A stretch of 64,000 bases of DNA, from positions 1,922,001 through 1,986,000 of the forward strand of contig NC_014507.1 in the NCBI RefSeq assembly GCF_000147875.1, written 5' to 3'. Position numbers and translations under genes: made by a program. The DNA comes from Methanolacinia petrolearia DSM 11571 (lineage in GTDB: Archaea > Halobacteriota > Methanomicrobia > Methanomicrobiales > Methanomicrobiaceae). Within the stretch, counting starts at the first letter, position 1; each line of letters opens with the position of its first letter. This document shows positions 44,941 through 60,811 of this stretch, piece after piece. Under the pieces are notes generated by a model, which did no database searches, was not told the DNA's origin, and saw nothing but the letters and a program-made list of their open reading frames with translations.

Positions 44941-45002
44941 ACGATTATTCGATAGCATAAAGTTAGAACAAAACCAATTTTTTAGGAAAACCGGAGAGAA
45001 AA

Positions 45003-46835
45003 ATGCGACTTCTATTGATTCATTCTGATAATATAGAATACAAAGCCCAGAAGAAAACTCCCGTTGCAGAGGAGAACATCATCAAAGAGGATGAGATGCA
45101 GGAGGCGCTTACCGCTTTCTGCGCCGTGGAAAAGATGGATGAGGACGATATTGCCGGTGTCTCATCGAAAACAGCGGCAGATATCCTCGAAACAGCAAAA
45201 CAGCTCGGCGTCACGAACATCATGATCTACCCCTACGCACACCTGTCATCCGATCTTTCCTCGCCTGCAAAGGCGGTCGAGGCCCTGTCGAAGATCGAGG
45301 ACGAATGCCGTATTAACGGGGAATTTACAGTCAAGAGAGCGCCTTTCGGCTGGTACAAGTCATTCACATTATCCTGCAAAGGCCACCCCCTCTCAGAACT
45401 CTCACGCACAATAACGCCCGGCGAAGAGGGAAAAACCGAGAAGAAGACTGTAGAGCACAACTTCTTCGTTCTCACCCCCGAAGGCGAGAAGAAGGACTAC
45501 AAAGAATATGCAGACGATTCGCCTCTCGGAAAGCTGATCAAAAAAGAGACAGGAATGAGCGTGGAGTCCGGAAAAGAGCCGTTGCACGTAGAACTGATGC
45601 GCGCAAAGGAGCTCGTCGACTACGAACCCCTCTCAGATGTCGGCCACCACAGGTGGATGCCGAAGGGAAAGATCATAAGGGACCTTCTCTCCGACTACGT
45701 CCTCGGTCTTGTCCTTAACTACGGCGGCATGCCCGTTGAGACCCCGGTGATGTACGACCTGGACAACCATGCCATCAACGAGCACGCGGGAAAATTCGGC
45801 GAGAGGCAGTACAGGTTCAAGTCGGGCAACAGGAACATGATGCTCAGGTTCGCCGCATGCTTCGGGATGTTCTCGATAATGCACGACATGCATATATCCC
45901 CCAACACCCTCCCGATGAAGATGTACGAACTCTCCACGTACTCCTTCAGGCACGAGCAGAAAGGCGAATGCATCGGCTTAAAGAGGCTTCGTGCATTTAC
46001 CATGCCCGATATGCACTCCATGTGCCTCGACATGAACCAGACGCTCGAGTGCTTTGAAGAGCAGCTAATGATGGGCTGGCAGACGGGAAAAGATCTCGAA
46101 TACCCGCTTGCGGCAGTATTCAGGTGCACCGAGGACTTTTACAAAGACCACGAGGAATGGGTCAAAAAGATCGTCCGCATGTCCGAAGTTCCTGTTCTCA
46201 TCGAGACACTCTCAGACAGGGTCCACTACTGGATAGCCAAGATCGATCTCGCCGCAATCGACGGACAGGGAAGACCGATCGAAAACCCGACGGTCCAGAT
46301 CGATGTAGAGAGTGCCGAGAGATTCGATATCAAATACTACTCGGTCAGGAACGAAGAGGTAAGGCCGCCGATCATCCACTGCTCGCCCACGGGAAGTATA
46401 GAGCGTGTGATCTGTGCACTCCTTGAGAACACCGCATCGCAGGAGGTTCCGATGCTTCCGGTATGGCTCTCGCCGACACAGGTAAGGATTCTCCCCGTCT
46501 CCTCGAAGCACACCGAATACGCAGGAGAACTCTGCAAAAAGATCAACGGTGCAGGCGTAAGGTGCGACTTCGACGACCGCGAAGAGAGCGTCGGAAAGAA
46601 GATCCGTGAAGCAGGAATGGACTGGGTGCCCTATGTAGTAGTCGTAGGAGATTCGGAGATAGAATCCGGAAAACTTCCTGTCACCATAAGGAGCATGTCG
46701 AAGCCGAAAGCTCCCTATAAGGAAGAGATGACGGCAGAGGACCTTATATCAAAGGTTAAGGAAGATATAGGCAACAGGCCGTTCAGGCCGATGTATACAT
46801 CCAAAAAACTATCGGCCAAACCCAGATTCATCTGA
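45003..46835 (+). CDS. thrS: Threonyl-tRNA synthetase, archaeal type
   Basis: Charges tRNA(Thr). The 610 residues begin with the archaeal N-terminal D-Tyr-deacylase-like editing domain ([18 protein letters not shown], ~1-140), which removes Ser from mischarged tRNA and replaces the bacterial editing domain. The class II core has motif 2 [19 protein letters not shown] (~316-334), zinc-site Cys and His ([11 protein letters not shown]) and motif 3 further on. The C-terminal anticodon domain shows [15 protein letters not shown] (~480). ATG follows GGAGAG. A T-tract closes the gene. Confidence 0.96.
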
Positions 46836-46851
46836 TCTCCCAAAACCACCC

Positions 46852-46859
46852 TTTTTTTT
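46852..46859 (+). terminator. T-tract terminator after thrS
   Basis: Eight T residues 17 bases after the thrS stop, before a separately promoted gene. Confidence 0.55.
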
Positions 46860-46924
46860 AAGACAATAAGACGAATGACTTAAATCCTTACAGATCGATT
46901 TTAGATTGTACATTGGTGGTAGAA

Positions 46925-47626
46925 ATGGCGAATAATATTATTGGAGATGCCTTCTCTTATGCAAAAGAAGGTCTTCTGGGCAACTTTACAAAATGGATCC
47001 TGGTTATTGTTCTTGCATTAATCCAGGGGATCACATTATGCATCATTCCGGTTCTCAACGGGTACATCGTAAGGATCTACTCCGGAGAAAAAACACTCCC
47101 CGAGGTCAATCAGTGGGGCAAACTGTTCGTTGACGGGTGGAAGTACAACATCATAGCAATACTCTACGCGATTCCTGCGATTATCGTAGCGGTTGTTCTC
47201 GGATTTTTCACCATATTGTCATTTTCAGAGATGACAACGATAATTTCGGGAGGGAATGCGGCGGGAGTAATCGAACTTGTCACAGGTATAATTACAGTTC
47301 TGTTCATCCTCCTGATCGTGCTTATGATACTCTCGCTGTTCCTCATGATGGGACTGGTGCGTCTGGGAAAAACAGGCAAGATTGGAGAAGCATTCAGTTT
47401 CGGTGCAATCAACAAGCAGATCTCAGGCGGTGTCGGATGGCTAGGGTACATCGGATACGTAATCCTTCTCTGGATACTCGGGTTGATTTTAATGCTGATA
47501 ATCGCGGCAATTAACATCCTGCTTCTCCCGCTGGGAATACTTGTCATGCTGCTGGTTCTTCCCGCATGGTCCGTATTCGCCGCAAAATACATGACAAACA
47601 TCTATGACGCAGGCGAATCAGCCTGA
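46925..47626 (+). CDS. DUF4013 multi-pass membrane protein (copy 2)
   Basis: About 233 residues from ATG 46925, which has GGTGG upstream; GTG codons at 46913 and 46916 are in frame but lie in that site. Opening MANNIIGDAFSYAKEGLLGN matches the other copy at 9646. Five to six hydrophobic segments follow, with the family turn LPEVNQWGKLFVDGWKYN between the first two helices and KIGEAFSFGAINKQI in a cytoplasmic loop. Function unknown; the family often sits near stress or transport genes. Confidence 0.85.
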   Translation: MANNIIGDAFSYAKEGLLGNFTKWILVIVLALIQGITLCIIPVLNGYIVRIYSGEKTLPEVNQWGKLFVDGWKYNIIAILYAIPAIIVAVVLGFFTILSFSEMTTIISGGNAAGVIELVTGIITVLFILLIVLMILSLFLMMGLVRLGKTGKIGEAFSFGAINKQISGGVGWLGYIGYVILLWILGLILMLIIAAINILLLPLGILVMLLVLPAWSVFAAKYMTNIYDAGESA

Positions 47627-47631
47627 AATAC

Positions 47632-47638
47632 TTTTTTT
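47632..47638 (+). terminator. T-tract after DUF4013 copy 2
   Basis: Seven T residues directly after the stop codon and nine bases before the next start; termination may be partial. Confidence 0.35.
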
Positions 47639-47646
47639 CAAACGCC

Positions 47647-48831
47647 ATGAGAGGAAGATGGAGAATTATACCTGCATTTCTGCTGGCTTTATTCATACTG
47701 CTCTCATTCATACAGCCTGTTATTGCATCTGAAGAAACGGAAGACGAATTTCAGGACCGGCTTTCCGGGCTGCTTGAAGAGTCGAACAATTCGATAACGG
47801 TCTTTTACAGCAACAGCTGCAGCGCCTGCAAAAAAGTAGTGCCCGAGATAATCGAACTTGCAAAGGAATACCCGGAAATATCCTTCAATTATTTCGATTT
47901 GTATGGGTCTGATGAAAACAGAACTATAATGCTGGCATTCGGGGAAAAATACGGAGTTGAATACCCAGCATACCCGGTAGTGTTTACAGGTGACTGCACG
48001 GTTCTCGAAGGAAAAAGCAAGATTGAGCTTTACCTTAGAAAAGTTCTGGAAGCCCATAAAAACGGGTATATCCCCGATGCCGAATATGAATCATCACTGT
48101 GGTCCGCCCAGTCACCGCCATCTGAAGCATCCAACGGAACAGCAACGGACGACAACAGGAAGATCTCGCTGCTGCTGGTAATACTATCCGGACTTGCCGA
48201 CGGAATAAATCCGTGTGCCTTATCCGTTCTGGCTCTCCTTCTTGCTACCCTCGCGGGTATGAATTCGAGAAAAAAGATCCTCCTCGGCGGTCTTGTATAC
48301 ACCTTCGCTGTATTCCTGTTCTATATAATGGCCGGGCTCGGAATCCTGACGATAATAAACTATTCAGGCTTTTCAGGCATTTTTTCGATTGCCGCAGGGA
48401 TCGTTGCACTAATAGCAGGAATAATAACCCTTACAGGCGGGATATGGGAAGGAAAAACAGTATCTCCCGGAATCCCGGTGTCAAAGAGACCTGCTATAAA
48501 GAAGATAATGGAGAGAGCATCCATCCCTGCCGCGTTCGTACTCGGTATGATGGTGGGACTTTTCGAACTGCCTTGTACCGGCGGGATCTACATCGCAATT
48601 CTCGGTCTCCTCTCGTCCCGGATGACATTCTACGAGGGCCTCCCCTATCTCCTGGTATACAACCTGATGTTCGTCGTCCCGCTGATCGCAATAATACTTG
48701 CAGTGGCTTTCGGGCTTTCACCTGAAAAAGTGGACAGCTGGAGAGATTCGAATAAAAAATTATTGAAGATCGGAATAGGCCTTATTTTAATTGCAATGGG
48801 CCTGTATATTCTTGCCGGATATTTGTTCTAA
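47647..48831 (+). CDS. Thioredoxin-CcdA fusion (DsbD-like thiol transporter)
   Basis: A 394-residue membrane protein. A signal peptide (IIPAFLLALFILLSFIQPVIAS) is followed by an extracytoplasmic thioredoxin-like domain with FYSNSCSACKKVVPE (~58-72, CxxC active site). Then comes a CcdA/DsbD transmembrane domain of six helices with the two redox cysteines in INPCALSVLALLLAT (~190) and GLFELPCTGGIYIAI (~303). It should move reducing power from cytoplasmic thioredoxin to the outside face, for example to keep exported thiols or cofactors reduced. The thioredoxin part precedes the CcdA part, the reverse of DsbD gamma. Confidence 0.88.
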   Translation: MRGRWRIIPAFLLALFILLSFIQPVIASEETEDEFQDRLSGLLEESNNSITVFYSNSCSACKKVVPEIIELAKEYPEISFNYFDLYGSDENRTIMLAFGEKYGVEYPAYPVVFTGDCTVLEGKSKIELYLRKVLEAHKNGYIPDAEYESSLWSAQSPPSEASNGTATDDNRKISLLLVILSGLADGINPCALSVLALLLATLAGMNSRKKILLGGLVYTFAVFLFYIMAGLGILTIINYSGFSGIFSIAAGIVALIAGIITLTGGIWEGKTVSPGIPVSKRPAIKKIMERASIPAAFVLGMMVGLFELPCTGGIYIAILGLLSSRMTFYEGLPYLLVYNLMFVVPLIAIILAVAFGLSPEKVDSWRDSNKKLLKIGIGLILIAMGLYILAGYLF

Positions 48832-48868
48832 AATAAAAATCAAGGGATTAAGAGATTAATCCCGCTGT

Positions 48869-49777
48869 TTATTCTTCAGCATGTCTCGACTGGTAGATGC
48901 AGTCCTGGATATCCTCGCCGAGTTTGCCGATTGCATCCGAACGGCATCTCTGGCAATGCCTCATCTGGCGGACAAAGGGAGAGCATTTGTCCTGCATCTC
49001 ACGCTTTTCTTTTGGTGTGGGCGGGGTCACATCACTGAATTTATACTGTGGTATAACAGGGATCAGGTTGAATGTGAATACCCCCATCTCGCCGACCTTC
49101 TTAGCAATGTCGACAATATGATGGTCGTTTACTCCCGGGATGAATACGGTATTGATCTTTACAAGGATCTTATTCGCAACAGCCATCTCGATACCTTTGA
49201 GCTGCTGGGAGAGAAGTTTTTCCGCGGCCTCTCTTCCGTGGAGTTTTTTGCCTTCCCATTCGACGAACGAATAGATCTTCTCGCCTATTGCCGGGTCTAC
49301 CGCGTTAAGGGTGACTGTAATATTTCCTACATCGTATTCGATGAGACGGTCGAGGCTTTCCGGAAGCAGGAGTCCGTTTGTACTGAGACATTTGATAGGT
49401 GTTGGATATTCCTCCTTCAGGAGTCTCAGCGTCTCAAATGTCTCCTCGTTTGCAAGAGGGTCCCCCGGGCCGGCTATTCCGATGACTTTTATATACGGAT
49501 ATTTGTCGAGAACCTCGCCCACGAGTTTTACAGCTTCCTCCGGCTTCAGGACTTCGCTGCAAACCCCCGGTCTGCTCTCGTTTACGCAATCAAAATCCCT
49601 TACACAATAATTGCACTGTATATTGCACTTCGGAGCAACCGGAAGGTGCATTCTCCCGGACTTATGGCACGCCTCCTTGCTGTAGCAGGGATGCTCGTTT
49701 ATCTTCCTCAACTGCTCGGGGTCATAAGGGATCTCCTTTCCCTCAATTAAAACAGTAGGATAGCCGTCATCACTCAT
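48869..49777 (-). CDS. nifB: NifB-type radical SAM protein, short archaeal form
   Basis: NifB builds the [8Fe-9S-C] core (NifB-co, L-cluster) from Fe-S precursors by a radical SAM carbide insertion. The 302 residues lack the NafY/NifX tail, as in methanogens. Landmarks are HPCYSKEACHKSGRMHLPVA (~29-48), the SAM cluster site CNIQCNYC (Cys51, Cys55, Cys58), FDCVNESRPGV (~62-72), GIAGPGDPLAN (~100) and the C-terminal CQRCRSDAIG (~277). No nitrogenase genes are in the window; a role in nitrogen fixation elsewhere in the genome or in supplying clusters for MCR activation are both possible. Confidence 0.92.
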   Translation of the reverse strand: MSDDGYPTVLIEGKEIPYDPEQLRKINEHPCYSKEACHKSGRMHLPVAPKCNIQCNYCVRDFDCVNESRPGVCSEVLKPEEAVKLVGEVLDKYPYIKVIGIAGPGDPLANEETFETLRLLKEEYPTPIKCLSTNGLLLPESLDRLIEYDVGNITVTLNAVDPAIGEKIYSFVEWEGKKLHGREAAEKLLSQQLKGIEMAVANKILVKINTVFIPGVNDHHIVDIAKKVGEMGVFTFNLIPVIPQYKFSDVTPPTPKEKREMQDKCSPFVRQMRHCQRCRSDAIGKLGEDIQDCIYQSRHAEE

Positions 49778-49894
49778 GTCAAAACCAAATAGAAGTCTAC
49801 CTGATTGGTAAAAAACGTAATGAAAGATCTATTACAGTACTAAATACCGGTTATACTCGTCAGTATTATTAGAGCAAAAGTAGATCTTACTCTT

Positions 49895-50431
49895 ATGGCA
49901 AATATTCGGATAATAGCTATAATGGTCATTGCCGCAATTCTCGCCGTATTTTCAGCGGGATGTTCCGACAACGGAGCGGGAGAGGCCACCGGAACCGCTA
50001 CACCCACGGCGGTTCTTACAGCAACAGCGACCAAAACCCCGGCAGGCGGCTCTTCAGGAGAATACTCGATCGACGAAGATCTCCCGTCAGGGATCGATGT
50101 CGATATCAGCGCAAGCGTGGTGGATTCCGGAACCCTGCTGATAAAATACGACTTTAATCTGACCTCGATGGGAACTGCAATGGGCCAGAAAGGCTGGAAG
50201 ATCCTTGCAACTGCATATGCATACAACCCCGATAAAGTGGAAGACGGCTTTTCGGTAAATTCATACGACGATATTATTTCTGCCGGACTTCCCTACAAAA
50301 CTAATAACATACAGGTATTCCCGAGCAATTTATACCCGGGAAAAGCTGAAGTCTCCACAAATGCCGACAGCGGCATGAGGCTCGATACCAATGATTACTA
50401 CGTATACGGTGTCGTCCTGAGAGAAGCCTGA
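49895..50431 (+). CDS. Lipoprotein with Thr/Ala linker, paralogue 1
   Basis: A 178-residue exported protein with a lipobox at VFSAGCSDNG (Cys23), so it is probably lipid-anchored outside the cell. A Thr/Ala-rich linker (~30-50) is followed by a ~120-residue beta-rich domain: VDSGTLLIKYDFNLTSMG, ATAYAYNPDKVEDGF and VNSYDDIISAGLPYKTNNIQVFP. The same plan, including DDxIxAGxPYK and YPxxxxxGxA, is found in the next gene, so the two arose by duplication. Function unknown. Confidence 0.78.
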   Translation: MANIRIIAIMVIAAILAVFSAGCSDNGAGEATGTATPTAVLTATATKTPAGGSSGEYSIDEDLPSGIDVDISASVVDSGTLLIKYDFNLTSMGTAMGQKGWKILATAYAYNPDKVEDGFSVNSYDDIISAGLPYKTNNIQVFPSNLYPGKAEVSTNADSGMRLDTNDYYVYGVVLREA

Positions 50432-50441
50432 AACAAAAAAC

Positions 50442-50447
50442 TTTTTT
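50442..50447 (+). terminator. T-tract between the twin lipoprotein genes
   Basis: Six T residues just after the first lipoprotein stop; possible terminator or partial stop before the second gene, which starts 22 bases on. Confidence 0.35.
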
Positions 50448-50468
50448 ATTTCAACGTGATTTTTCATT

Positions 50469-51008
50469 ATGGATACAAGGATCATTATCATTGCAGTACT
50501 ATTGGGAGCTGGAATCTTTCTTGCCGGGTGCACCTCCACGCAAAGTTACAATCCTGATACTACTGCTCCTGTTACTGAAACCGCAACACCAACTGCCTCA
50601 GTAACTGCAATGCCTACTTACGCTGTGACCGAACCTGTCCGGGTTATCGGGGATGACATTACTTCGATAAAGATCACGGTAGATGCATCGGAAACGGGAA
50701 CAAATACGCTAAATGTTTTTGTCCATTACGATTCATCGACTCTTCCTTCAACCGGAACCGGATCCGAGCTCATGGCGACCCTGTTTGCATACAATTATGC
50801 AGATGTTCCCTATGGTTTCGACCCGAAGACATCGGACGACGTGATCAACGCCGGCATTCCCTACAAGAGGGTTGCAAGTGTGGTCTACCCGAACAACAAA
50901 GTGAATGCAGGTGCAGAATTGCCGACGGATTCCGTGCAGGGTTCTTTGAACATAGCCAAACCCTACAACTATGGTGCAATTATTGAGAAGACCGGAACAA
51001 GGCAATGA
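50469..51008 (+). CDS. Lipoprotein with Thr/Pro linker, paralogue 2
   Basis: A 179-residue lipoprotein with lipobox FLAGCTSTQ (Cys21), a Thr/Pro linker and a domain matching the previous gene: TNTLNVFVHYDSS, ATLFAYNYADVPYGF, TSDDVINAGIPYKRVASVVYPNNKVNAGAE. Sequence identity with its neighbour is low in the linker and higher around the DDxIxAGxPYK core. Extracellular and membrane-anchored. No catalytic residue pattern is visible. Confidence 0.78.
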   Translation: MDTRIIIIAVLLGAGIFLAGCTSTQSYNPDTTAPVTETATPTASVTAMPTYAVTEPVRVIGDDITSIKITVDASETGTNTLNVFVHYDSSTLPSTGTGSELMATLFAYNYADVPYGFDPKTSDDVINAGIPYKRVASVVYPNNKVNAGAELPTDSVQGSLNIAKPYNYGAIIEKTGTRQ

Positions 51009-51067
51009 TTGATACGGATGGAAAAGAAACAGGAAATGAGAAATATCATTTTTAAGGGGGGACTAAA

Positions 51068-51298
51068 ATGGTTTTAAAGAAATTATGCGACCTTTCGGCC
51101 GGAGAAAAAGGAAAAATCTCGGAATTTTCGGGATATCAGAACGAATCGGAATGCATGGGTCTTTATCCCGGGATGATGATCGAGGTCCTGACCAGGGACT
51201 CCTCAAAAGGGCCGTGTATCATAAAAACCGAAAGCGGCCGGATGGAAATCGTCATGAAACGGGAGATTGCCTCTCATATGCAGGTGGAAAAAGATTAA
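51068..51298 (+). CDS. feoA: FeoA-domain protein
   Basis: A 76-residue SH3-like FeoA protein (MVLKKLCDLSAGEKGKISEF; MGLYPGMMIEVL; EIVMKREIASHMQV). FeoA partners FeoB in ferrous iron uptake; here no feoB follows, so it acts in trans or serves as a stand-alone regulator. AAGGGGGG lies just upstream of the ATG. Overlaps the 3' end of the convergent aldehyde dehydrogenase gene by 4 bases. Confidence 0.88.
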   Translation: MVLKKLCDLSAGEKGKISEFSGYQNESECMGLYPGMMIEVLTRDSSKGPCIIKTESGRMEIVMKREIASHMQVEKD

Positions 51299-52728
51299 TC
51301 GGCGACCGGTTTTTGTCTGATTATCATAATCTTCTGTTCGGTCATCTCTGCCAGTGCATATGCCGGCCCTTCTCGCCCGAAGCCGGACATCTTCACTCCG
51401 CCGTATGGCATAACATCGACCCTGAACGTGGGGATATCGTTGATGATCACCCCGCCTGCTTCGATCTTTTCATATGCATAAAATGCATTCCCGATATCGG
51501 AAGTAAACACTCCCGCCTGAAGGCCGTATACTGAATTATTGGCCAGATCCATGGCTTCGCTGAATTTTTCATAAGGTGTGACCGTAACTACCGGTGCAAA
51601 GATCTCCGTGGAGTTGATCTCCATCCCAGGTGTCGCAGCTGTAAGAATTGTGGGGGAGATTGTCTTCCCGTCATATTTCCCGCCGGATATGATCTTTGCA
51701 CCGCCGGAGATTGCCGCCTGAACCTTACGCCATGCCTCCCCTGCCGCCTCTTCAGAGATCAACGGTCCGACAAATGTATCAGCTTTACCCGGATCTCCGT
51801 ATTTCAGCGATTCAAATGAGGATGATAACCTTTCAAGAAACTCCCGGAAGACATCATTCTGAACAAATACCCGCTGCACCGATATGCAGACCTGTCCGGC
51901 ATTTGCGCAGGCGCCGGTTGCGATCCTTGGTGCGGCATATCCCAGGTCGGCATCGCTGTGAACTATTGCTGCGGCATTTCCACCAAGTTCGAGAGATACT
52001 TTCTTTTTTCCGGCAATGCTCTTCAGGTGCCATCCTACACCGGGGCTTCCGGTAAAGCTCAGGAATGCGATTCTTTCATCACGAACCATCTTTTCCGCAA
52101 GACGGGACTCGCATGGGATCACGCTTACAGCTTCGGGAGGATAGCCTGCTTCAAGAACAAGTTCCCCGAGAAGAAGCCCGGACACCGGTGTTTTCGAGGC
52201 AGGCTTCAGGATAAACGGGTTTCCGGCCGCTATTGCCGGCCCGAGCTTGTGGCATGCAAGATTGAGGGGATAATTGAACGGAGTTATTGCAAGGACGGTT
52301 CCTACCGGGAATCGCCTGGAAAAACAGGTGTAGTCTCTTCCGGCTTCCGTCCGGTCGAGCGGGATGATCTCTCCCGTCTGCCTGACGGCTTCTTCTCCCG
52401 AGATCTTTATCGTCTCTATCGAACGGTCGACCTCGGCGGAGGCAAGCGACCTGACTTTCCCCCCCTCTTTAATCAGAATCTCAATAAATTTATCCCTGTT
52501 TTCTCCGATCAGTTCTGCAAGTCTTTCAAGAATCCGCATCTTCTCGTAACCTGCAAGAGCCGAGGTCTTCTTAAACGCCTCACCTGAGCCGGCTATAGCT
52601 TCTTCGATCTCTTCTTCCCCGCAGAGGCAGATCCGGTCGAAGACATCGCCGGTGTATGGATTTATTACGTCGAGATGCCTGTCGCTCCGTTTTCTTTTAC
52701 CGCATACTATGAATTCCCGGGCGTTCAT
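51295..52728 (-). CDS. NAD(P)-dependent aldehyde dehydrogenase, possibly lactaldehyde dehydrogenase
   Basis: A 477-residue enzyme of the aldehyde dehydrogenase superfamily. The catalytic Glu is in SLELGGNAA (~249), the nucleophile Cys in NAGQVCISVQRV (~280-291), the cofactor loop in FTGSPGVG (~224) and PFNYPLNLACHK (~150) marks the N-terminal fold. In methanogens such genes are often annotated as lactaldehyde dehydrogenase (CofA, lactate for coenzyme F420). The alternative is a non-phosphorylating glyceraldehyde-3-phosphate or succinate semialdehyde enzyme. Neighbours do not decide. Confidence 0.85.
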   Translation of the reverse strand: MNAREFIVCGKRKRSDRHLDVINPYTGDVFDRICLCGEEEIEEAIAGSGEAFKKTSALAGYEKMRILERLAELIGENRDKFIEILIKEGGKVRSLASAEVDRSIETIKISGEEAVRQTGEIIPLDRTEAGRDYTCFSRRFPVGTVLAITPFNYPLNLACHKLGPAIAAGNPFILKPASKTPVSGLLLGELVLEAGYPPEAVSVIPCESRLAEKMVRDERIAFLSFTGSPGVGWHLKSIAGKKKVSLELGGNAAAIVHSDADLGYAAPRIATGACANAGQVCISVQRVFVQNDVFREFLERLSSSFESLKYGDPGKADTFVGPLISEEAAGEAWRKVQAAISGGAKIISGGKYDGKTISPTILTAATPGMEINSTEIFAPVVTVTPYEKFSEAMDLANNSVYGLQAGVFTSDIGNAFYAYEKIEAGGVIINDIPTFRVDVMPYGGVKMSGFGREGPAYALAEMTEQKIMIIRQKPVAD

Positions 52729-52761
52729 GATCCATAATCACCGTGATCTGTTAAAAATCAA

Positions 52762-52959
52762 TCATTCATGTTTCCGTTTTCCGGCAAAGAACGATTCGAT
52801 GAAGCCCAGGATATAATATGTAATTACAATTACGGCAGCAAAGACCAGGATAAATGACAGAGTGTCGCCAAGAATGCTGTTGATCATATTTCCCGCAGCC
52901 AGGGCCACGAGAACGGAGATGAACAATTTTATGAGCTCGATTCTTTCCTCAAAGAACAT
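52762..52959 (-). CDS. Small membrane protein of unknown function
   Basis: About 65 residues from the ATG at 52959. Two hydrophobic segments (IKLFISVLVALAAGNMI and FILVFAAVIVITYYILGFI) are flanked by acidic (FFEERIE) and basic (AGKRKHE) ends. No clear ribosome site, so it could be leaderless; a longer 100-residue reading exists but its first 35 residues are polar and atypical. Confidence 0.55.
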   Translation of the reverse strand: MFFEERIELIKLFISVLVALAAGNMINSILGDTLSFILVFAAVIVITYYILGFIESFFAGKRKHE

Positions 52960-53103
52960 TGAATAATTATTGTTTTTCAGGGATTTATCGGTTGGCGGTA
53001 TCGTGCGGTTTCTAACCGTTGATCGCAAAATATACTGATCCCGGATCAAAAATAAACCCGGCAACCTGATTATTAAAAAAATGTTAATGGAGATCTGATC
53101 ATC

Positions 53104-54423
53104 CTAATTTCGCTGGACAGTGGGCTTTCCGGGGGATGAGAACTTCATTCTCAGGTATTGTGCAAGATAAAACACTCCTATCAATCCGGCCAGGATCCCG
53201 AACGATGCATACAGACCTGCATATGATCCGACAACCGCAAAGACGGGAACTACGGCCAGGGATGAGCAGAACTGCCCCGTGTTCAGGGATACGGACCATC
53301 CACCCATTACTTTGCCGACTATGGGTCTCGGAGTAACCGACATCAGCCAGCTCAGGAGCGTGGGTATGATAAGGCCGTTTGCCGCACCGATTATTATTAC
53401 TGCTATTCCAGCCGGGAGCAGCGAACCCGATAAACCCATCATGACAAATCCCAGGCAAAGCAGGATATAAGAGAGTGCAAGGACGGATACCCTGTGCATA
53501 CTGGCGGTAATTCTCCAGTAAAATATCCCTGCCAGTGCCGAGACAAAACCCATCAGTCCCAGGAAAAGGCCGCTGAGAAGTGCATGATTCGAAAATATTC
53601 CTCCGGCCTGTACTGGCCCGGCGGTGTTGATGATATCAGCTATCAGGTACGGCAGTTTTGTCGGCAGTAAAAAGAACATAACCATGCTCAGGAACAAAGT
53701 TGCATATACCAGACCAATTTCAAAAAGCGGAGTGGTATATCCTGTTTTTTTCCCGGAAACATGTATAGGATTCTCAACTTTATCGACGGGTCTCCCGGAA
53801 CCAGCATTTTGGATCGGTTCCGGTTCCCTCAGCGGCTCTCTCATCGTCACAAGGACACCTGCGAGGATCACGATTCCGAGGAGGTAGATTAAAAACGACA
53901 TTCTCCACGAAATTGTGGCGAGTATTCCTCCGCTGGTCTCAAGAATCAGGACGCCTATTCCCATAGAGGCAGCCTGGTACCCGAGGATTTTTGCACGTGC
54001 GATTCCCGTATAGTAATCCGTGATAAGAGCACTTGTTGTGACGGTTATCCCGGCGATTCCTATGCCGAGGATGATTCTTCCCGCAAGAATTGCCGAAAGC
54101 GAATTAAGAAAAAATCCCGAAACCCCTGCAAAGGAAAATATAAGCAGGGAAGCAGAAAGTACAGGTATCCTCCCTGTCCTGTCCGATAAGATTCCGATAA
54201 AGAAACCGCTGAACGCGATTGCGAGCGAAGGGAGGGTGATTATCAGGGAGACCATTGCTTCCGAAGCATCGGGGAACGATTCGCTGATTAAGGGGAGCGC
54301 AGGAGCGACTGCTGCACCGCCCATGAGGATGAGCATGGATGAAAGAAGCAAAAACGCAGTCGTCCATTTTGAAGGTTTAAACTTTGTTTGCTTGAATATT
54401 GAGAGGATTTGTGAATTTTGCAT
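53104..54423 (-). CDS. Major facilitator superfamily transporter
   Basis: A 439-residue membrane protein with about 12 helices and the MFS loop 2-3 signature GILSDRTGRIPVLSAS (~77-92), plus a cytoplasmic mid-loop of charged residues (REPLREPEPIQ, ~195-225). The first helix region MLILMGGAAVAPALPLISESFP is typical of drug/H+ antiporters of the DHA1 group, so export of a small molecule is the best guess. Substrate unknown. Stands alone on the minus strand. Confidence 0.88.
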   Translation of the reverse strand: MQNSQILSIFKQTKFKPSKWTTAFLLLSSMLILMGGAAVAPALPLISESFPDASEAMVSLIITLPSLAIAFSGFFIGILSDRTGRIPVLSASLLIFSFAGVSGFFLNSLSAILAGRIILGIGIAGITVTTSALITDYYTGIARAKILGYQAASMGIGVLILETSGGILATISWRMSFLIYLLGIVILAGVLVTMREPLREPEPIQNAGSGRPVDKVENPIHVSGKKTGYTTPLFEIGLVYATLFLSMVMFFLLPTKLPYLIADIINTAGPVQAGGIFSNHALLSGLFLGLMGFVSALAGIFYWRITASMHRVSVLALSYILLCLGFVMMGLSGSLLPAGIAVIIIGAANGLIIPTLLSWLMSVTPRPIVGKVMGGWSVSLNTGQFCSSLAVVPVFAVVGSYAGLYASFGILAGLIGVFYLAQYLRMKFSSPGKPTVQRN

Positions 54424-54589
54424 CCTTACACGTTAAGATCATTTTGTTAAATAGCTGGTGCTCCCGGAATGAATAGCAATACTTTGAAATATTTGGAGGG
54501 TGCAGGAAGGATGATTTCATAAAGTGATTCACGGATGGATCATGTTCTCACGCAAAATCCAAAATCATCTCAATGTAAATTATATTCTT

Positions 54590-54820
54590 ATGGCAACCGA
54601 TGATGAAACGATAACGATAAGCCATGAAACCCGGATGAAACTTGCCAGACTGCGGAAGGTAGGCCAGTCATACGATTCCCTGATTTCGACTATGGCGGAT
54701 CAGGTGATGGAAACGTCAGAATATGGTGAGGGCTGGGATGTGGAAAAGATTGACAGCAACATGAAAAAAATCCGGGAGACAAGCACTTTTACACCTTTGA
54801 AAGCGATTCCGCGAAGGTGA
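54590..54820 (+). CDS. Putative antitoxin (toxin partner decayed)
   Basis: A 76-residue protein MATDDETITISHETRMKLAR, continuing LRKVGQSYDSLISTMADQV, a pattern common in small archaeal antitoxins of VapB/RelB-like type that precede RelE or PIN toxins. The ATG at 54590 is preferred over an upstream in-frame ATG, because the extra 22 residues are not family-like. It is followed within 10 bases by a RelE-like remnant. Assignment rests on size, pattern and context. Confidence 0.6.
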   Translation: MATDDETITISHETRMKLARLRKVGQSYDSLISTMADQVMETSEYGEGWDVEKIDSNMKKIRETSTFTPLKAIPRR

Positions 54821-54828
54821 GATAAATC

Positions 54829-54960
54829 TCAAACTTTGAGATCGTCCTGAGTAAAAAGGCAATCAAGTACCTTGACTGGATGACGTATCTGCCTGTACGG
54901 ATTGAAAATAACAACGATTGGATCAACCGCAAAAAATATTTGATTCGGGGCGACAGATAA
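54829..54960 (+). pseudogene. Remnant of a RelE/ParE-type toxin
   Basis: Just after the antitoxin, one frame reads ISNFEIVLSKKAIKYLDWM, the usual start of a RelE toxin, but a stop codon precedes it and no start codon is present. It then jumps to VRIENNNDWINRKKYLIRG, resembling the RIENNxI...RKNIYD end of the fold. About 40 central residues are missing and the ending is shifted. This is a deleted toxin. Confidence 0.55.
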
Positions 54961-54968
54961 AAGAGTAC

Positions 54969-55163
54969 ATGCGGACCGTAGAGATATCAGATTCAATATA
55001 CAATGAAATAATGTCCCGGAGAAAAGGCAGGGAATCAATAAGCAAGACCATAGAGCGGGAACTAAAACCGATCGAAAAATGTGCGGCAGTTAAGGAATTA
55101 GAAAAATTAATGAAAGAACCACGTTATAAACTTTCAGATGTAGAAAAAGAATTAGGCATTTAA
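54969..55163 (+). CDS. Putative antitoxin, second TA pair
   Basis: A 64-residue protein MRTVEISDSIYNEIMSRRKG, then RESISKTIERELKPIEK, with a Lys/Glu-rich C-terminus (KELEKLMKEPRYKLSDVEKELGI-type helix). The N-terminal strand plus helix looks like a ribbon-helix-helix or VapB/RelB DNA-binding fold. Its last codons overlap by four bases with the convergent toxin-like gene. Convergent order is unusual for toxin-antitoxin pairs, so the pairing is an inference. Confidence 0.55.
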   Translation: MRTVEISDSIYNEIMSRRKGRESISKTIERELKPIEKCAAVKELEKLMKEPRYKLSDVEKELGI

Positions 55164-55447
55164 CAAGACTTGATCCAATTGTGGTACTCTTTTTCAGTCA
55201 TTATCTTTAGAACTATTGCATGTCTGTCTGGTTTTGTTCCTTCAATCACATAAATCGCGACATGGTTATAAGGGATGTGTAAACGCCAGTAATCCTTGCA
55301 GTTTCCTTTCAATTCGTGTTTGTTACATGAGTTTATATTTACAAATAAATATTCTTCAAGGCACATTTTAAGCTTAATAATAACGTTTTTGCTGATTGAT
55401 GGGTTTTTCTTAAGATATACCTTTACACTACGATTAATTTCAATCAT
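55160..55447 (-). CDS. RelE/YafQ-like toxin
   Basis: A 95-residue basic protein, MIEINRSVKVYLKKNPSISK, with ELKGNCKDYWRLHIPYNHVAIYVI (~45-68) corresponding to the RelE core (LKGxxxxxxRxRxGDYRVIY) and a final MTEKEYHNWIK. Such proteins cleave mRNA at the ribosome. Key basic and aromatic residues of the family are partly present (Arg55, Tyr60), so activity is uncertain. Located tail-to-tail with a putative antitoxin. AT-rich codon use unlike the core genes. Confidence 0.6.
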   Translation of the reverse strand: MIEINRSVKVYLKKNPSISKNVIIKLKMCLEEYLFVNINSCNKHELKGNCKDYWRLHIPYNHVAIYVIEGTKPDRHAIVLKIMTEKEYHNWIKSC

Positions 55448-55804
55448 ATTACCCGCTTGAATAATTATATAGAGGCTTTACAATAATTATCTATTGGATA
55501 ATTGAGAATTTCGCCCGTATAAACGGATCTCCATGATCTATACTTTTTCGTGCTTTCTCCTTACCCCGTGCCAGGAAGGGTTTATTCTCCCTGTGACCAG
55601 ATCATCTTTCGGCTTGCCTTTGTTCGTGAAACGGGTTATGTCCAGACTTTCAAAACATCTAATATGGGACAAAGGCTAAACCCCCCACTAAATTTAAACA
55701 GAATTCTTAAACTCGTAATGTGTGCAGGATGAAAGTGAGCAGAATTAACGAGATTTCGTTAATACAGAATACCTTTATGATTTCATGAATTCAAAGCATT
55801 CAAC
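55448..55804. other. Gene-free stretch with one copy of a direct repeat
   Basis: 357 bp with no convincing gene; a 60-codon open frame here has no ribosome site or recognisable pattern. It holds the left copy of the 39-bp direct repeat (55710-55748) and an inverted word AACGAGATTTCGTT at 55747-55760. Composition becomes AT-rich to the right. Confidence 0.6.
55710..55748. repeat. 39-bp direct repeat, left copy
   Basis: AACTCG, five variable bases, then TGTGCAGGATGAAAGTGAGC and AGAATTAA. The last 28 bases differ from the right copy (56342-56369) at two positions only. It frames the membrane gene at 55805-56299. Confidence 0.75.
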
Positions 55805-56299
55805 ATGGAACTTCAATTAGTCTTTAATCTTATTCTTCTATATCTAACATTGATTTTAACTCTCTTTGGTCTCGCTAGTTTAATACATGAAGGATTGGGG
55901 GCTCCGGCAATAAGTTCAGTTGTGCTGTCAATAATAGTGGTTTTTTCGATTTATTTCATAATTGAAAAAAAAAAGAATACTTCTAATAAACGGATCAATC
56001 TGACAGTAATATTAATGATATTAGGCCTTTTTGCTTTTCTTCTCGCTATATTCATTGTTTATTACAATGGCTTTATTGAACCAACAATATCACTATCTCT
56101 AACAATTTCGCTCATATCGTTCATTATTGCAACATTTGTCTTTTATTTTAATAGCCTTAATTCATATTATAATGAAAAAGAAAATAAAGAGAATCAAAAA
56201 GCAATTATGGAACAATTCATAAAACTAAATGAAAAAGTTGAGGCCTTACAGAAATTAATTGATTTAAAAGAGAATACGGGCTCAGGAGAAGATCAATAA
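55805..56299 (+). CDS. Four-helix membrane protein with coiled-coil tail
   Basis: A 164-residue protein of unknown family. Four hydrophobic segments (~5-27, 32-52, 66-88, 92-117) are followed by a charged heptad-like tail (NEKENKENQKAIMEQFIKL, EKVEALQKLIDLKE) typical of a cytoplasmic coiled coil. Strong A/T bias and Ile/Asn/Lys-rich composition differ from core genes and suggest transfer. It is enclosed by direct repeats and faces another membrane protein gene. The plan (membrane helices plus coiled coil) is found in some phage-defence effectors, but nothing specific supports that here. Confidence 0.65.
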   Translation: MELQLVFNLILLYLTLILTLFGLASLIHEGLGAPAISSVVLSIIVVFSIYFIIEKKKNTSNKRINLTVILMILGLFAFLLAIFIVYYNGFIEPTISLSLTISLISFIIATFVFYFNSLNSYYNEKENKENQKAIMEQFIKLNEKVEALQKLIDLKENTGSGEDQ

Positions 56300-56330
56300 T
56301 CCTAATAATATCAAAAAAAATAATCTTCTG

Positions 56331-56369
56331 AACTCGCTACCTGTGCAGGATGAAAGTGAACAAAATTAA
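56331..56369. repeat. 39-bp direct repeat, right copy
   Basis: Right partner of 55710-55748. Its last bases include the stop codon of the minus-strand gene that follows, so the repeat may originally be the 3' end of such a gene duplicated on the left. Confidence 0.75.
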
Positions 56370-57388
56370 TCCTCAGCTTTTATATCGCTCAGCGAGAGCC
56401 TATATTCTGATCGATATTTTTCAATTAGCCGATCAACTAATGTAATTATCTCGTCATCTAAATCAGCTAACTTTTCTAAATTATATTCAATAGCTGTCTT
56501 TGATGGATCTATATGATTTTTATCTAATTTTTCGAAGATTTCATTTATATTACGATTAAGATCAATTATAATACCTCTGGAAGGTTCAGGAATTATCTCA
56601 ATATATTGAGAATATTCAATAAATATTTGATAAAATATAGCTTCATGGATACAATCGATGATATCATCTAAATATATAAAAATATTTGAACAACCATCAC
56701 TACCATCTTTAGAGCAAATAGTGCAATATACTCCCTCCCTATCATAAGTCTCTAATTCAAACTCATCCATGGGATATGGTTGAGTATTAATCTGATCATT
56801 TAGACTTTCTTTAATTAGGGCAGTAATTTTTTTAGAGTCAATATACTCTTTAATCTTTTCTAGAGCTTCATGAACCTCATTATAACAATCTCTTCTTCTA
56901 GACAATTTTGTATCTAATTCTGGAAGGTCTATAGCAATTTCATTTAACAAAATATGAAAATAATAGGGAGCATCAGGATAAACATCATCTATGCAATAAA
57001 AATTTTGGCATTTTATATTACAAAATTTTAAGCATCCCCAATGACTATTATAAGATAACCATTTATATTTTTTATTAGAGAAAAGTTCAGATTCAATTTC
57101 TAATTCGGATTTTATACGATTCAAGATTAATCTAATTCTATCGAGAATTTGGCCTTTTTTCTGTTGTTCAAGAGACAAATCTAAAGTTTTTTTATTATAT
57201 ATTAGAGTAATAAATGTGACAACTGCTAGGGCAATAGTGCCCACTGCAACTAATAAATCACAAAAATCCGAAAAATTCAAAGATATCCATGTTTGTAGCC
57301 CTGTTAAGAATGACATAATATAAAAGACTGGTTGTATATATAAAAACAAAATGGAATAAAGAAGTAAATTTATTATTACCATACTCAA
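56366..57388 (-). CDS. AT-rich membrane protein with large cytosolic domain, unknown function
   Basis: A 340-residue protein; ATG at 57316 (MSFLTGLQTW) is a possible shorter start. One or two N-terminal hydrophobic helices (IINLLLYSILFLYIQPVFYIM; LLVAVGTIALAVVTFITLIY) precede a ~270-residue soluble helical domain. It has two Cys pairs (WGCLKFCNIKCQNFYC ~120-133 and YCTICSKDGSDGC ~224-236), which could bind zinc, and long helices with acidic ends. I do not recognise the family. Composition is very AT-rich, as in the neighbouring island genes. Confidence 0.65.
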   Translation of the reverse strand: MSMVIINLLLYSILFLYIQPVFYIMSFLTGLQTWISLNFSDFCDLLVAVGTIALAVVTFITLIYNKKTLDLSLEQQKKGQILDRIRLILNRIKSELEIESELFSNKKYKWLSYNSHWGCLKFCNIKCQNFYCIDDVYPDAPYYFHILLNEIAIDLPELDTKLSRRRDCYNEVHEALEKIKEYIDSKKITALIKESLNDQINTQPYPMDEFELETYDREGVYCTICSKDGSDGCSNIFIYLDDIIDCIHEAIFYQIFIEYSQYIEIIPEPSRGIIIDLNRNINEIFEKLDKNHIDPSKTAIEYNLEKLADLDDEIITLVDRLIEKYRSEYRLSLSDIKAED

Positions 57389-57543
57389 TACTTCAATTTT
57401 AAAAAGATAATATTAACTTATTTTTTGTACCATATGATTTAATAATATACCTAATTCAGGTGAACCTCTTTTCAAACCCCATGTTACACTTTTAGAACAC
57501 CCCATTAATGGTCTAAAAATACCAACTAAACAGAAGTCAAAGT

Positions 57544-57571
57544 GTACGCATGTGTACGTACACATACGTAC
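57544..57571. promoter_or_regulatory. 28-bp palindrome before the RHH gene (likely operator)
   Basis: The left half GTACGCATGTGTAC and right half GTACACATACGTAC are complementary except at one pair, with a perfect 12-bp centre GTGTACGTACAC. It directly abuts the ribosome site AGGAG (57572-57576). Ribbon-helix-helix proteins bind such symmetric sites, so autoregulation is likely. Confidence 0.75.
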
Positions 57572-57585
57572 AGGAGAAAAGAGAA

Positions 57586-57849
57586 ATGAATAAAGGAGAA
57601 AAACCGAAAAAACGTGAGATCCATAGAGTTAGAAAAAGACTGTCTCTCACAATAGATCCAGATAATCACGACTATATTAAAAATAACGGCTTAAACGCTT
57701 CCCGATTGATGGATACGACCTTAAATGAGCTTAGAAATAAAACAAATGGAGAATTGGTCTTTATACTCGAAAACAAGAATAATACATGGGCCCGCTGCGA
57801 TTCGAACGCAGGATCTTCGCCGTGTAAAGGCGACGTCATAACCAGCTAG
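57586..57849 (+). CDS. Ribbon-helix-helix regulator whose 3' end runs into tRNA-Val
   Basis: An 87-residue basic protein from the ATG at 57586 (AGGAG upstream; an earlier ATG lies inside the palindrome). KKREIHRVRKRLSLTID (strand) and PDNHDYIKNNGLNASRLMDT (two helices) give a CopG/MetJ-like ribbon-helix-helix fold at ~8-50. The last ~22 codons (after NTWARCDSNAG) are encoded by the antisense strand of the tRNA gene, so the original C-terminus was replaced or is fortuitous. This is the mark of an element inserted at the tRNA 3' end. It probably represses itself through the 28-bp palindrome. Confidence 0.72.
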   Translation: MNKGEKPKKREIHRVRKRLSLTIDPDNHDYIKNNGLNASRLMDTTLNELRNKTNGELVFILENKNNTWARCDSNAGSSPCKGDVITS

Positions 57850-57860
57850 ACCACGAGCCC
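57787..57860 (-). tRNA. tRNA-Val (anticodon UAC)
   Basis: Reads on the minus strand as a full cloverleaf. The acceptor 5' GGGCTCG (57860-57854) pairs with CGGGCCC (one G-T pair) plus discriminator A. The anticodon stem TCGCC/GGCGA closes the loop TTTACAC with anticodon TAC, and the T arm is CTGCG-TTCGAAT-CGCAG. CCA is not encoded. There is no intron. Confidence 0.95.
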
Positions 57861-57948
57861 CTTGCAGGTTCTGCCCAATAAATTAGGTTTTACGATATAT
57901 TAAGATGTTGGATTTTCATTTTGAAAATGATATTTTTCTTCTTTTAAG

Positions 57949-58884
57949 TCATTCGTTTTTCAGCATGTCTGCGGCTTTTTTTATCTTCTCCAGGGTCTCT
58001 TCTGAAACGGCGGGATATGAATCGTGAAGGGAGATTAGTTTCGAGGCGATGATATCGGACACGATCGTCCTTGCAACCCATTTGTAATCGGCAGGAATAA
58101 TATACCACGGAGCGCTCTTTGTGCTCGTATTATTCAGCATATCCTCGTATGCTCTGATGTAATTATCCCAGAACTTTCTCTCCGCAATATCCGAGGGCGA
58201 TATCTTCCAGTATTTGCTCTCGTTTTCGAAACGGGCGAGAAGCCGTTCCTTCTGCTTTTCTTTGGAGATATGAAGGAAAAATTTCAGGACGACCGTTCCG
58301 CTGTTAGAAAGATGCCTTTCATATGAATTAATATCCTCATATCTCATCTTCCAGAATTCATCGTGAAACTCTTTTTGTGGAAGATGGCGTCCTTCAAGTA
58401 TTTCCGGGTGGACTTTTGTGATCAGGACCTCTTCGTAATAAGAACGGTTGAAGATGCCGATCTCCCCTCTTTTCGGAAGCTTGAGGTTGCATCTCCAGAA
58501 ATAATCATGATCCAGCTCCTCTTTCGACGGAACATCGAAACTGCTCACCCTGCATCCCTGGGGATTTACGCCGGACATTACATGCTTGATGAGGCTGTCT
58601 TTGCCGGCCGTATCCATCCCCTGAATAATTACAAGAAGGGAGTAGGTGTTATTCGCCCACAAAAGGGACTGCCCGCGTGCCAGATCTTCACGGTTTTTTT
58701 CAAGAATATCCTTCGCTTTATTTTTTACCTCTTCCTTCTGGAAGTAAGCTATCTCATCACTCACTTTCCATCCGGTATCATAATCCCTGAGTTTAACTTT
58801 CTGACCTTCATCGATCCTGAATTTTGCAATAAGTTCTTCTGCCAGCACAGAGTTTTCCCCGTTGAATATCAAATACGCAGGCAC
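57949..58884 (-). CDS. ppk2: Polyphosphate kinase 2 family protein
   Basis: Transfers phosphate between polyphosphate and nucleotides. The 311 residues carry the PPK2 core: Walker A IIQGMDTAGKDSLIKHV (~89-105), NPQGCRVSSFDVPSKEE (~108-124), DYFWRCNLKLPKRGEIGIFNRSYYEEVL-type region with Walker B FNRSYYE (~146-152), and the lid KEKQKERLLARFENESKYWK (~208-227). A single domain makes it the one-domain PPK2 type. Whether it prefers ADP/GDP or AMP cannot be told here. It is near the phosphate permease genes 1.9 kb away, consistent with phosphate storage. Confidence 0.92.
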   Translation of the reverse strand: MPAYLIFNGENSVLAEELIAKFRIDEGQKVKLRDYDTGWKVSDEIAYFQKEEVKNKAKDILEKNREDLARGQSLLWANNTYSLLVIIQGMDTAGKDSLIKHVMSGVNPQGCRVSSFDVPSKEELDHDYFWRCNLKLPKRGEIGIFNRSYYEEVLITKVHPEILEGRHLPQKEFHDEFWKMRYEDINSYERHLSNSGTVVLKFFLHISKEKQKERLLARFENESKYWKISPSDIAERKFWDNYIRAYEDMLNNTSTKSAPWYIIPADYKWVARTIVSDIIASKLISLHDSYPAVSEETLEKIKKAADMLKNE

Positions 58885-58986
58885 AATATTTCATTTTTTT
58901 TAAACAGGACATGACAGTTGAAACAATTTTATAATTCAATAAATACAATTTTTATTATCCTATTATAAAAACGCGGTGATTATTTC

Positions 58987-60711
58987 TTGAAAAAAATACT
59001 AATTCTCTGTAAAAATCCGGAATTACAGAATATTATTGAAAAAATTATTAAGAGAACCGGAGAGATCATCGAACCCCATTACTGTACATCCATAGAAAAA
59101 GCAAGACAAAGGATATTTCAGGAGGACTACTGGCTTATCATCTCAGGATTTACAATTTCTGAAATAGGCGGACCAGGATTTATTAAAGAATTACAGGATT
59201 CCGGGAAGAACGTTCCGTTTATCTTCCTGACAGGACTCGAAAAAAGAGAAACGGATGTGGACGGGACTCAGGCTGATCCGGAATATATCTTTATCAACGA
59301 CAAAAATCCCACAGAAACAGTGGAAATACTGGAAAAAATAATCCCGGAGATCCTGATGCATAAAGACAAAAATCCTGAAAAACATCTCAACGAAGCAAGA
59401 TATAAATCACTGGTTGAATCGATGGACGATTCAATCTATATGGTCGACAGGGAATGCCGCTATCTTTTCATGAATAAAAAGCATCTCGAAAGGATCGGAA
59501 GATCGGCCGAATTGTTCAAAGCAAGGAGTTACAACGATTTTCATACAGATGAAGAGACAGGAAATTTTTCCGGAAATATTCGTCGCCTGTTCTCTACAGG
59601 AGAAAATATCGAAGAAAAATATGAAAAGAACGGGAAAAAGTACCTGAGAACATTCACACCCGTGAGGGACATCAATGACGAAAGGATCATCGCCGCCAGC
59701 ATTACCTCCGGCGAGACTGACGATGCAGATACTTTCGAAAAGGATATTTCGTCATATATCGTCGACGGCAATTGCAGGTACCTGTCAATCAACAGGCATC
59801 ACATGGAGATCCTCGGGATAAACTGTGAAGATCTCTTCATCGGAAGAAATTACGAGGAATTTCATCCGGAAGGCAAAACCGAAAAATTCTCCTCGATGGT
59901 AGGGGAGGTTTTCAATACGGGAGAGACCCTTAGAGACGAATATGAATCAGGCAAATCGCATTTTACAAGACGATTCTGCCCTGTTAAGGATATACTGACC
60001 AGTGAAGTCGTAGCGGTGACCATAGTTTCTACAAATATAACAGAACAGAAACTGACTGAAAAGAGCCTGATAGAGGCAAATAAAAAATTAAACCTTTTAA
60101 ACAGCATCACCCGGCACGATATCCTCAACCAGATGACCGTTCTTTTGGGATACCTCGATCTATCAGCAGCCGGATGCCAGGATGAAACCCAAAAAGTTTA
60201 CCTTGAAAAACAAAAAAAGGCTGCTGACACCATTTATCACCAGATTTTATTTACAAGGGATTACCAGGACATCGGTGTCAGTACTCCGGCATGGCAGGAC
60301 GTCTCCGCACTAATAGATCGCACGTCAGGAATGCTGAGGCATGATAATATTGAAATCAAAAATCGCTGCGGAGATCTGAAAATCTTTGCTGATCCTCTCC
60401 TCGAAAAAGTATTCTACAATCTTACAGATAATGCAATCCGGCACGGGGGCAGCATCTCAAAGATCACTTTTTGCTCCGAGAAAATACCCCACGGGATCAA
60501 ACTGAACTGTGAGGACGACGGCAGGGGAATTCCTGATGAACACAAAGAGAGGATATTCAGGCAGGGGTTCGGTAAAAACACCGGCCTCGGACTTTTTTTA
60601 ATCAGGGAAATCCTTTCAATAACAGGACTCGAAATACATGAGACAGGCTGTTACGGAAAAGGGGCGAAGTTCGAAATAACGATCCCGGACATGATGTATT
60701 CTGAGTGCTGA
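58987..60711 (+). CDS. PAS-domain sensor histidine kinase with degenerate receiver
   Basis: A 574-residue soluble kinase with TTG start at 58987 (GGTGAT upstream). Residues ~1-125 have a response-regulator fold, but the acidic pocket and phosphoacceptor Asp are lost (ILILCKNPE in place of VDDE; WLIISGFT in place of LSDFxMP). Two PAS domains follow (~135-240 and ~250-350; repeated DxxCRYLxxN). The dimerisation helix carries the phospho-His in NSITRHDILNQMT (His376), and the HATPase domain shows NLTDNAIRHGG (N box, ~480), DDGRGIP (~513) and KNTGLGLFL. No membrane helix, so it senses a cytoplasmic cue; no response regulator is adjacent. Confidence 0.9.
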   Translation: MKKILILCKNPELQNIIEKIIKRTGEIIEPHYCTSIEKARQRIFQEDYWLIISGFTISEIGGPGFIKELQDSGKNVPFIFLTGLEKRETDVDGTQADPEYIFINDKNPTETVEILEKIIPEILMHKDKNPEKHLNEARYKSLVESMDDSIYMVDRECRYLFMNKKHLERIGRSAELFKARSYNDFHTDEETGNFSGNIRRLFSTGENIEEKYEKNGKKYLRTFTPVRDINDERIIAASITSGETDDADTFEKDISSYIVDGNCRYLSINRHHMEILGINCEDLFIGRNYEEFHPEGKTEKFSSMVGEVFNTGETLRDEYESGKSHFTRRFCPVKDILTSEVVAVTIVSTNITEQKLTEKSLIEANKKLNLLNSITRHDILNQMTVLLGYLDLSAAGCQDETQKVYLEKQKKAADTIYHQILFTRDYQDIGVSTPAWQDVSALIDRTSGMLRHDNIEIKNRCGDLKIFADPLLEKVFYNLTDNAIRHGGSISKITFCSEKIPHGIKLNCEDDGRGIPDEHKERIFRQGFGKNTGLGLFLIREILSITGLEIHETGCYGKGAKFEITIPDMMYSEC

Positions 60712-60811
60712 ACAAGGTACCGGAATCCGGATCTTTAAACCTTATCATATACGGGCGAACTAATTTTAATCAGCAGACAAAATAAGACAACAGGGAAGAC
60801 CAAATCCGGAT

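Follow-up and report, generated by a model that had tools for sequence, protein, structure and literature searches.

Suicidal tyrosine integrases are already known from archaea. According to the accessible part of a review of archaeal tyrosine recombinases, those with the PF16795 domain are split into int(N) and int(C), target variable tRNA genes and have yielded no consensus on the expression of the two halves, int(N) being cited there as transcribed in some integrated Sulfolobus elements (PMC8371274). Int(N) pieces are left unannotated, according to one paper. In the Thermococcales plasmids pTN3 and pT26-2, a PF16795 integrase is split at an attP inside its own gene and int(N) stays at the tRNA; the SSV1-type integrases of the Fuselloviridae share the catalytic family and the split mechanism. 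The integrases of the Archaeoglobus pleomorphic proviruses ApPV1 and AvPV1 belong to the same family (39% and 25% identity) and start at an att-like duplicate of the 3' end of a tRNA, as in the family described here; one att of AvPV1 overlaps tRNA-Gly, as stated in the accessible part of PMC10919331.

A second likeness is to ribbon-helix-helix (RHH) autorepressors such as CcdA, namely an RHH signature combined with an array of palindromic operator units at the start of the gene itself; CopG and proteins of the Arc/MetJ type are further RHH autorepressors. The present family differs from these in its fusion to a tyrosine recombinase and in having no toxin partner, and its operator binding is putative. 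In word searches, the accessible text of the review mentions neither an RHH/operator module nor Methanomicrob- or Methanoculleus (PMC8371274), and RHH, ribbon and CopG do not occur in the accessible text of two plasmid papers, one of them on the pT26-2 family (PMC6972569). Titles and abstract openings in the open literature gave no description of an archaeal RHH domain joined to an integrase, so absence from the literature is unproven.

Here we describe a gene of the methanogen Methanolacinia petrolearia DSM 11571 (2.84-Mb genome, one contig), located in a stretch of 64,000 nucleotides that we refer to as the window. The gene is very probably an int(N) piece of a suicidal tyrosine integrase from the archaeal Phage_integr_3 (PF16795) group, to which the pTN3, pT26-2 and SSV integrases belong. 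It differs from the plasmid systems in that the hosts are Methanomicrobiales, in that helically phased arrays of the unit TGTNCGNACA precede the gene, and in that the window retains an orphan int(N) only.

An RHH reading frame that ends inside tRNA-Val(tac)

The gene occupies positions 57586-57849 on the plus strand (best start ATG 57586, stop codon 57847-57849) and encodes a product of 87 aa. Its 3' end opens into the antisense of the 3' end of tRNA-Val(tac) (57787-57860, minus strand), the presumed attachment site, which spells residues 68-87 and the stop, i.e. 21 codons; the preliminary description had correctly reported such an antisense ending, estimating it at about 22 codons. This att-encoded tail, WARCDSNAGSSPCKGDVITS plus stop (57787-57849, plus strand), has homologs in relatives that run on into an integrase.

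Residues 16-52 (57631-57741, plus strand) form the RHH part. The RHH assignment in the preliminary description was weak by Pfam alone, the window protein matching CcdA below cut-off (E 0.022), and became firmer with a family profile, whose sole PDB match was CcdA (2adl, E 0.0027) across the RHH part. The AF2 model places helices at residues 25-34 and 38-52 (mean pLDDT 74) and assigns no strand in the monomer; a Foldseek search with the RHH model gave no significant match. Based on the profile match to CcdA, the two modelled helices and the sequence pattern, we assign this part to the RHH DNA-binding domains, which consist of a beta-strand and two helices.

To the left of the gene lies AT-rich DNA (GC 0.28-0.34 at 55-58 kb). 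The sister species (genome G060) aligns to 44347-55808 (94.5%) and 57460-60748 (89%) with different DNA between, which leaves 1.65 kb (55809-57459), from the syntenic left flank to the operator region, as species-specific DNA and presumed remnant of an element or its cargo; it holds two ORFs of 164 and 340 aa. The AT-rich DNA had been proposed to be an element now without an integrase. The base composition stands, but the RHH gene is no cargo of such an element, being itself the N-terminus of its integrase, and the extent of the element is uncertain, as only 55809-57459 is specific relative to the sister species. The second tRNA-Val 3' end that had been predicted to the left was found neither in the window (up to 3 mismatches allowed) nor in the 15 kb to the left, where the best match in a sliding comparison, 20 of 35 bases, equalled that of the inverted control. 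A catalytic domain of the PF16795 type with the R..K..R..Y residues, i.e. an Int(C), was likewise not found in the whole genome (profile, E≤0.1), so the window gene is an orphan. With neither Int(C) nor a far-end att in the window, we class the locus as an orphan fragment only and read the split at this locus solely through homology to its relatives.

The tRNA-Val(tac) of the sister species also carries an Int(N), which is frameshifted and contains stops. Its RHH stretch aligns poorly with that of the window, whereas the flanks are 89-95% identical, and the T arms of the two tRNAs differ by compensating changes. We therefore rejected orthology of the two Int(N) copies and read them as separate integrations, each bringing its own tRNA 3' end.

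Several further features were observed to the left of the gene. A 39-nt direct repeat, 85% identical between its copies (55710-55748 and 56331-56369), flanks the 164-aa ORF, and the sister species has the left copy only. About 180 bp of apparently non-coding DNA within 55533-55737 recur with approximately 71% identity near all three tRNA-Val Int(N) loci of genome G013 (L041, L042 and L043), and had no match in Rfam at gathering thresholds. Positions 54918-55447 may encode a toxin-antitoxin pair (weak VAPB_antitox and YafQ matches); a possible pair of this kind also lies near the Int(N) of G013:C1, its order relative to the equivalent of 55595-55737 being swapped. PADLOC gave no match for the four window proteins tested.

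Recurrence at tRNA genes and link to an integrase

The 67 residues preceding the tRNA were used as a query against 199 genomes of the order, and relatives were found in 42 of them, the window's own genome included. We fetched 65 homologous places for reading, to which the window locus adds a sixty-sixth. A tRNA on the opposite strand adjoined the 3' end of the RHH stretch in 58 of the 65 (Val with tac, cac or gac, Ala, Thr, Met, Lys, Phe, Ile, Asn and Arg), and seven had no adjoining tRNA. By hand count, the frame was open into or through the tRNA at 45 of 59 tRNA-abutting loci, the window included; stops within the match occurred in 15 of the 65 fetched places. Of eight places tested in another family of the phylum, five showed the antisense-tRNA arrangement, two lay at the 5' end of a tRNA-Leu on the same strand and one had no tRNA (L147 and L149 belong to the order and are not among these eight). 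The two tRNA-Leu cases, L152 and L155, enter the 5' end of a tRNA-Leu(gag), where the attachment side is possibly different. Within the family, 30 tRNA-Val loci were read; Int(N) was present at six of the nine tRNA-Val(tac) loci and absent from three. A scan of genome contigs with the single window protein returned two relatives, and the same scan of viral contigs none; with the integrase profile, the viral contigs gave one distant match.

A second, partial copy of the tRNA 3' end was detected upstream in direct orientation at eight loci, at distances of 1.3-13.4 kb. At one of these, L061, an ORF that starts inside the second tRNA copy encodes a tyrosine recombinase in the same direction as the RHH ORF. 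Protein searches found relatives of this integrase in 18 of the 199 genomes, and 16 of 19 integrase places start in or just after the antisense of a tRNA 3' end, e.g. WARRDSNSRPPPCEGDV or MDPAGFEPAASTLRT (judged by eye). All four integrase representatives tested matched PF16795, Archaeal phage integrase (E 2e-14 to 2e-33). In an 11-row profile the catalytic residues were invariant, and this profile matched the crystal structures 3vcf, 4dks and 3uxu ('Probable integrase') with E 1e-11; these are presumably structures of the SSV1 integrase.

Six Int(N)/Int(C) pairs could be matched by their tRNA. In five of them, the RHH and integrase parts share one frame without stops through an exact core of 24-59 bp; in the sixth (G012) the two are out of frame, and its Int(N) also contains a stop. 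An unsplit 434-aa ORF was found in G100:C13, with the RHH part at residues 61-108 (iE 1.7e-11) and the integrase at 165-433 (iE 1.4e-109), and another unsplit copy, in G090:C17, is interrupted by one in-frame stop in the segment from RHH to att. In relatives of the window gene, the homologous N-terminus thus precedes att and the catalytic domain in one frame. Among described systems, the N-terminus of the pTN3 integrase matched the RHH profile (iE 1.1e-7), that of pGE2 did so weakly (iE 0.007) and that of pT26-2 marginally (iE 0.073). The SSV6 integrase differs, its N-terminal domain being PF07935 and not RHH, as do the annotated ApPV1 and AvPV1 integrases, which lack the N-terminal part and in whose records the RHH profile never scored better than iE 0.02. 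The att linker of integrase relatives at Methanosarcina-like loci, L163 among them, is likewise spelled by a tRNA, and the N-terminal part ahead of it is a different one; Pfam gave nothing above cut-off for this part, and these loci point to an exchange of N-terminal modules among suicidal integrases.

Together, the tRNA adjacency, the shared frame, the unsplit ORF and pTN3 indicate that the window gene represents an orphan Int(N), derived from an archaeal suicidal integrase. The original circular element would have carried a single ORF composed of an RHH domain, a linker spelled by attP (the tRNA 3' end in antisense) and a catalytic domain. Its promoter would have borne an array of 10-bp palindromes, most likely bound by the RHH domain, through which the integrase would act as its own transcriptional repressor. 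The recombination of attP with tRNA-Val would then have cut the gene in two, leaving promoter, operator and RHH part at the tRNA, where the frame now reads into the antisense strand, and placing the catalytic part at the far end, to be lost later with most of the element. Counting against this origin are the missing Int(C) and second att in the window, the out-of-frame G012 pair and the G090 stop, the iE of only 0.073 for pT26-2 and the different N-terminal domain of SSV6, the 7 of 65 places without a tRNA together with the same-strand (2/8) and tRNA-less (1/8) places of the other family, and the non-significant Foldseek result.

The preliminary description had taken the arrangement for what is left when DNA inserts at a tRNA 3' end, which the second att copies at eight loci and the in-frame split integrases in five of six pairs bear out. 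It had also proposed that the same arrangement in distant relatives without an insertion would speak against this; the arrangement does occur widely (58 of 65 places in the order, and in the other family), but the relatives show evidence of insertion. The overlap of its RHH gene with the tRNA holds; the gene itself is not free-standing and is the N-terminal part of an integrase split by integration. A related alternative, that the RHH protein is an excisionase or regulator of the element encoded by its own gene beside attP, is improbable: the differing frames in G012 and the stop in G090 speak for it, yet in five of six pairs RHH and integrase share an uninterrupted frame, in one ORF they are not split at all, and pTN3 encodes its integrase as one protein that has this N-terminus. 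We rejected a separate gene because of the frame test and the unsplit ORF. That a CcdA-like antitoxin gene ends in a tRNA by chance is hardly credible although both the weak Pfam match and the profile's only PDB match are to CcdA, given that no toxin gene adjoins it (beside it lie the tRNA and a divergent ORF that matches no toxin), that the related sequences occur at tRNAs and in fusion with integrases, and that the toxin-antitoxin-like pair of the window is separate, 2 kb away.

A putative phased operator array before int(N)

Directly upstream of the gene lies a 30-bp near-palindrome, TGTACGCATGTGTACGTACACATACGTACA (57543-57572), in which 14 of 15 pairs match and which consists of three adjoining 10-bp units, TGTACGCATG, TGTACGTACA and CATACGTACA. 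Its 3' end abuts a Shine-Dalgarno GGAG (57573-57576, plus strand). It had been described as a 28-bp palindrome at the ribosome site; its near-perfect symmetry and its position hold, with the length corrected to 30 bp and one pair mismatched. None of 100 shuffles of the 145-nt upstream region reached its palindrome score. The middle unit is exact, and each outer unit has two mismatches.

The exact unit TGTNCGNACA was present upstream of 34 of 64 Int(N) loci (two of the 66 were dropped as their upstream sequence was too short) and in none of 590 control windows from the same loci; since the motif was derived from these Int(N) loci, only the contrast with the controls counts. Two units spaced by 10 bp, one or both of them exact, occurred at 22 of 64 loci versus 0 of 590 controls, and unit spacings were mostly 10 (43 cases) and 20 (31 cases). 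A Shine-Dalgarno-like match followed the last unit within 12 nt in 27 of 45 loci, in 19 of them at offset 0. A TATA-like box, ATTAATGG (57504-57511, plus strand), may mark the int promoter; its position agrees with a T/A-rich box (CTTTAAG, TTTATGG) that many of the 45 relatives in the alignment show, as read by eye, approximately 30 nt upstream of the operator. In pTN3, one exact TGTNCGNACA unit lies just inside the integrase start. The earlier proposal of a strong operator candidate is upheld by the unit counts and the shuffles. The helical phasing of the 10-bp array fits an autoregulation of the integrase by its RHH domain, and the self-control switch of the window gene appears to be still in place.

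The variable base of the operator partly tracks RHH residue 20, with H paired to C, N or K to G, and S, Y, A or T to A, and exceptions exist. Columns 18 and 20, which lie in the strand, rank near the top for covariation; columns 27 and 34 are equally strong, so the link between residue 20 and the variable base is only suggestive, and we did not take it as proof.

Scar or repressor

Searched with profiles (cut-offs 1e-3 for Int(N) and 1e-4 for Int(C)), 34 genomes of the order contained Int(N), 11 contained Int(C) and 8 contained both. Int(C) was thus missing from 26 of 34 Int(N) genomes, and Int(N) from 3 of 11 Int(C) genomes. This excess could result from shielding by the tRNA or from selection.

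The more probable reading is that Int(N) is an inert or nearly inert, decaying scar and that the intact window copy is merely young. Decayed copies occur at many loci. The sister copy is both broken and of a different lineage, so the window Int(N) may post-date the split of the two species. The excess of orphan Int(N) over orphan Int(C) and the retention of both operator and frame in the window sit less easily with an inert scar.

These same observations leave some room for a second reading, possible but distinctly less likely, in which orphan Int(N) is a living repressor that is expressed from its own promoter, binds TGTNCGNACA arrays and silences incoming integrase promoters, thereby conferring immunity or restraining excision. 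Besides the excess (26/34 versus 3/11) and the intact ORF and operator, it could draw on the accessible part of PMC8371274, which cites int(N) transcripts from some Sulfolobus elements in the integrated state, and on dN/dS values. The latter were 0.24 for the window gene versus that of G013:C1, and 0.37, 0.24 and 0.42 when three syntenic orphans located at tRNA-Met were compared with one another; nine pairs, picked for gap-free alignment, were computed in all. However, a dN/dS between elements reflects selection while the elements were whole, and the tRNA-Met test is small: with only three orthologs found, it is no more than suggestive. Moreover, many copies are decayed (stops in 15 of 65 places), the sister copy is frameshifted with stops, and the essential tRNA next door would also shield Int(N) from deletion. 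Rather unlikely, too, is the more specific proposal that orphan Int(N) copies, outlasting the catalytic half and the cargo by a long time, are chromosomal immunity or control genes which would silence related incoming integrases through helically phased TGTNCGNACA arrays, with a specificity given by the RHH strand. If it were true, the splitting of an integrase would not be only suicide and would set free an RHH repressor with a promoter under its own control.

Whether scar or repressor, Int(N) pieces, so far treated as pseudogenes, gain an identity, consisting of an RHH domain and a matching operator array, and orphan copies far outnumber the catalytic halves. Why self-destroying integrases persist, and what the remaining half does, can be addressed by a binding assay and gene deletion. 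An RHH frame running into a tRNA, combined with a TGTNCGNACA array, can further serve as a search key for decayed elements in methanogen genomes.

At the three syntenic orphan loci at tRNA-Met (L074, L082 and L084), the frame is kept and the DNA between Int(N) and the left remnant differs between species, which points to a turnover of cargo behind a constant Int(N). The att-bounded elements carry genes of restriction and defence types, namely a type I system (L048), a type II methylase (L061), HmaB (L078) and a type IV enzyme (L092); five proteins from these four elements were tested. At L076 and L048, a second Int(N)-like tail was seen by eye before the att copy lying upstream, a trace to be expected if elements had integrated in tandem at one tRNA.
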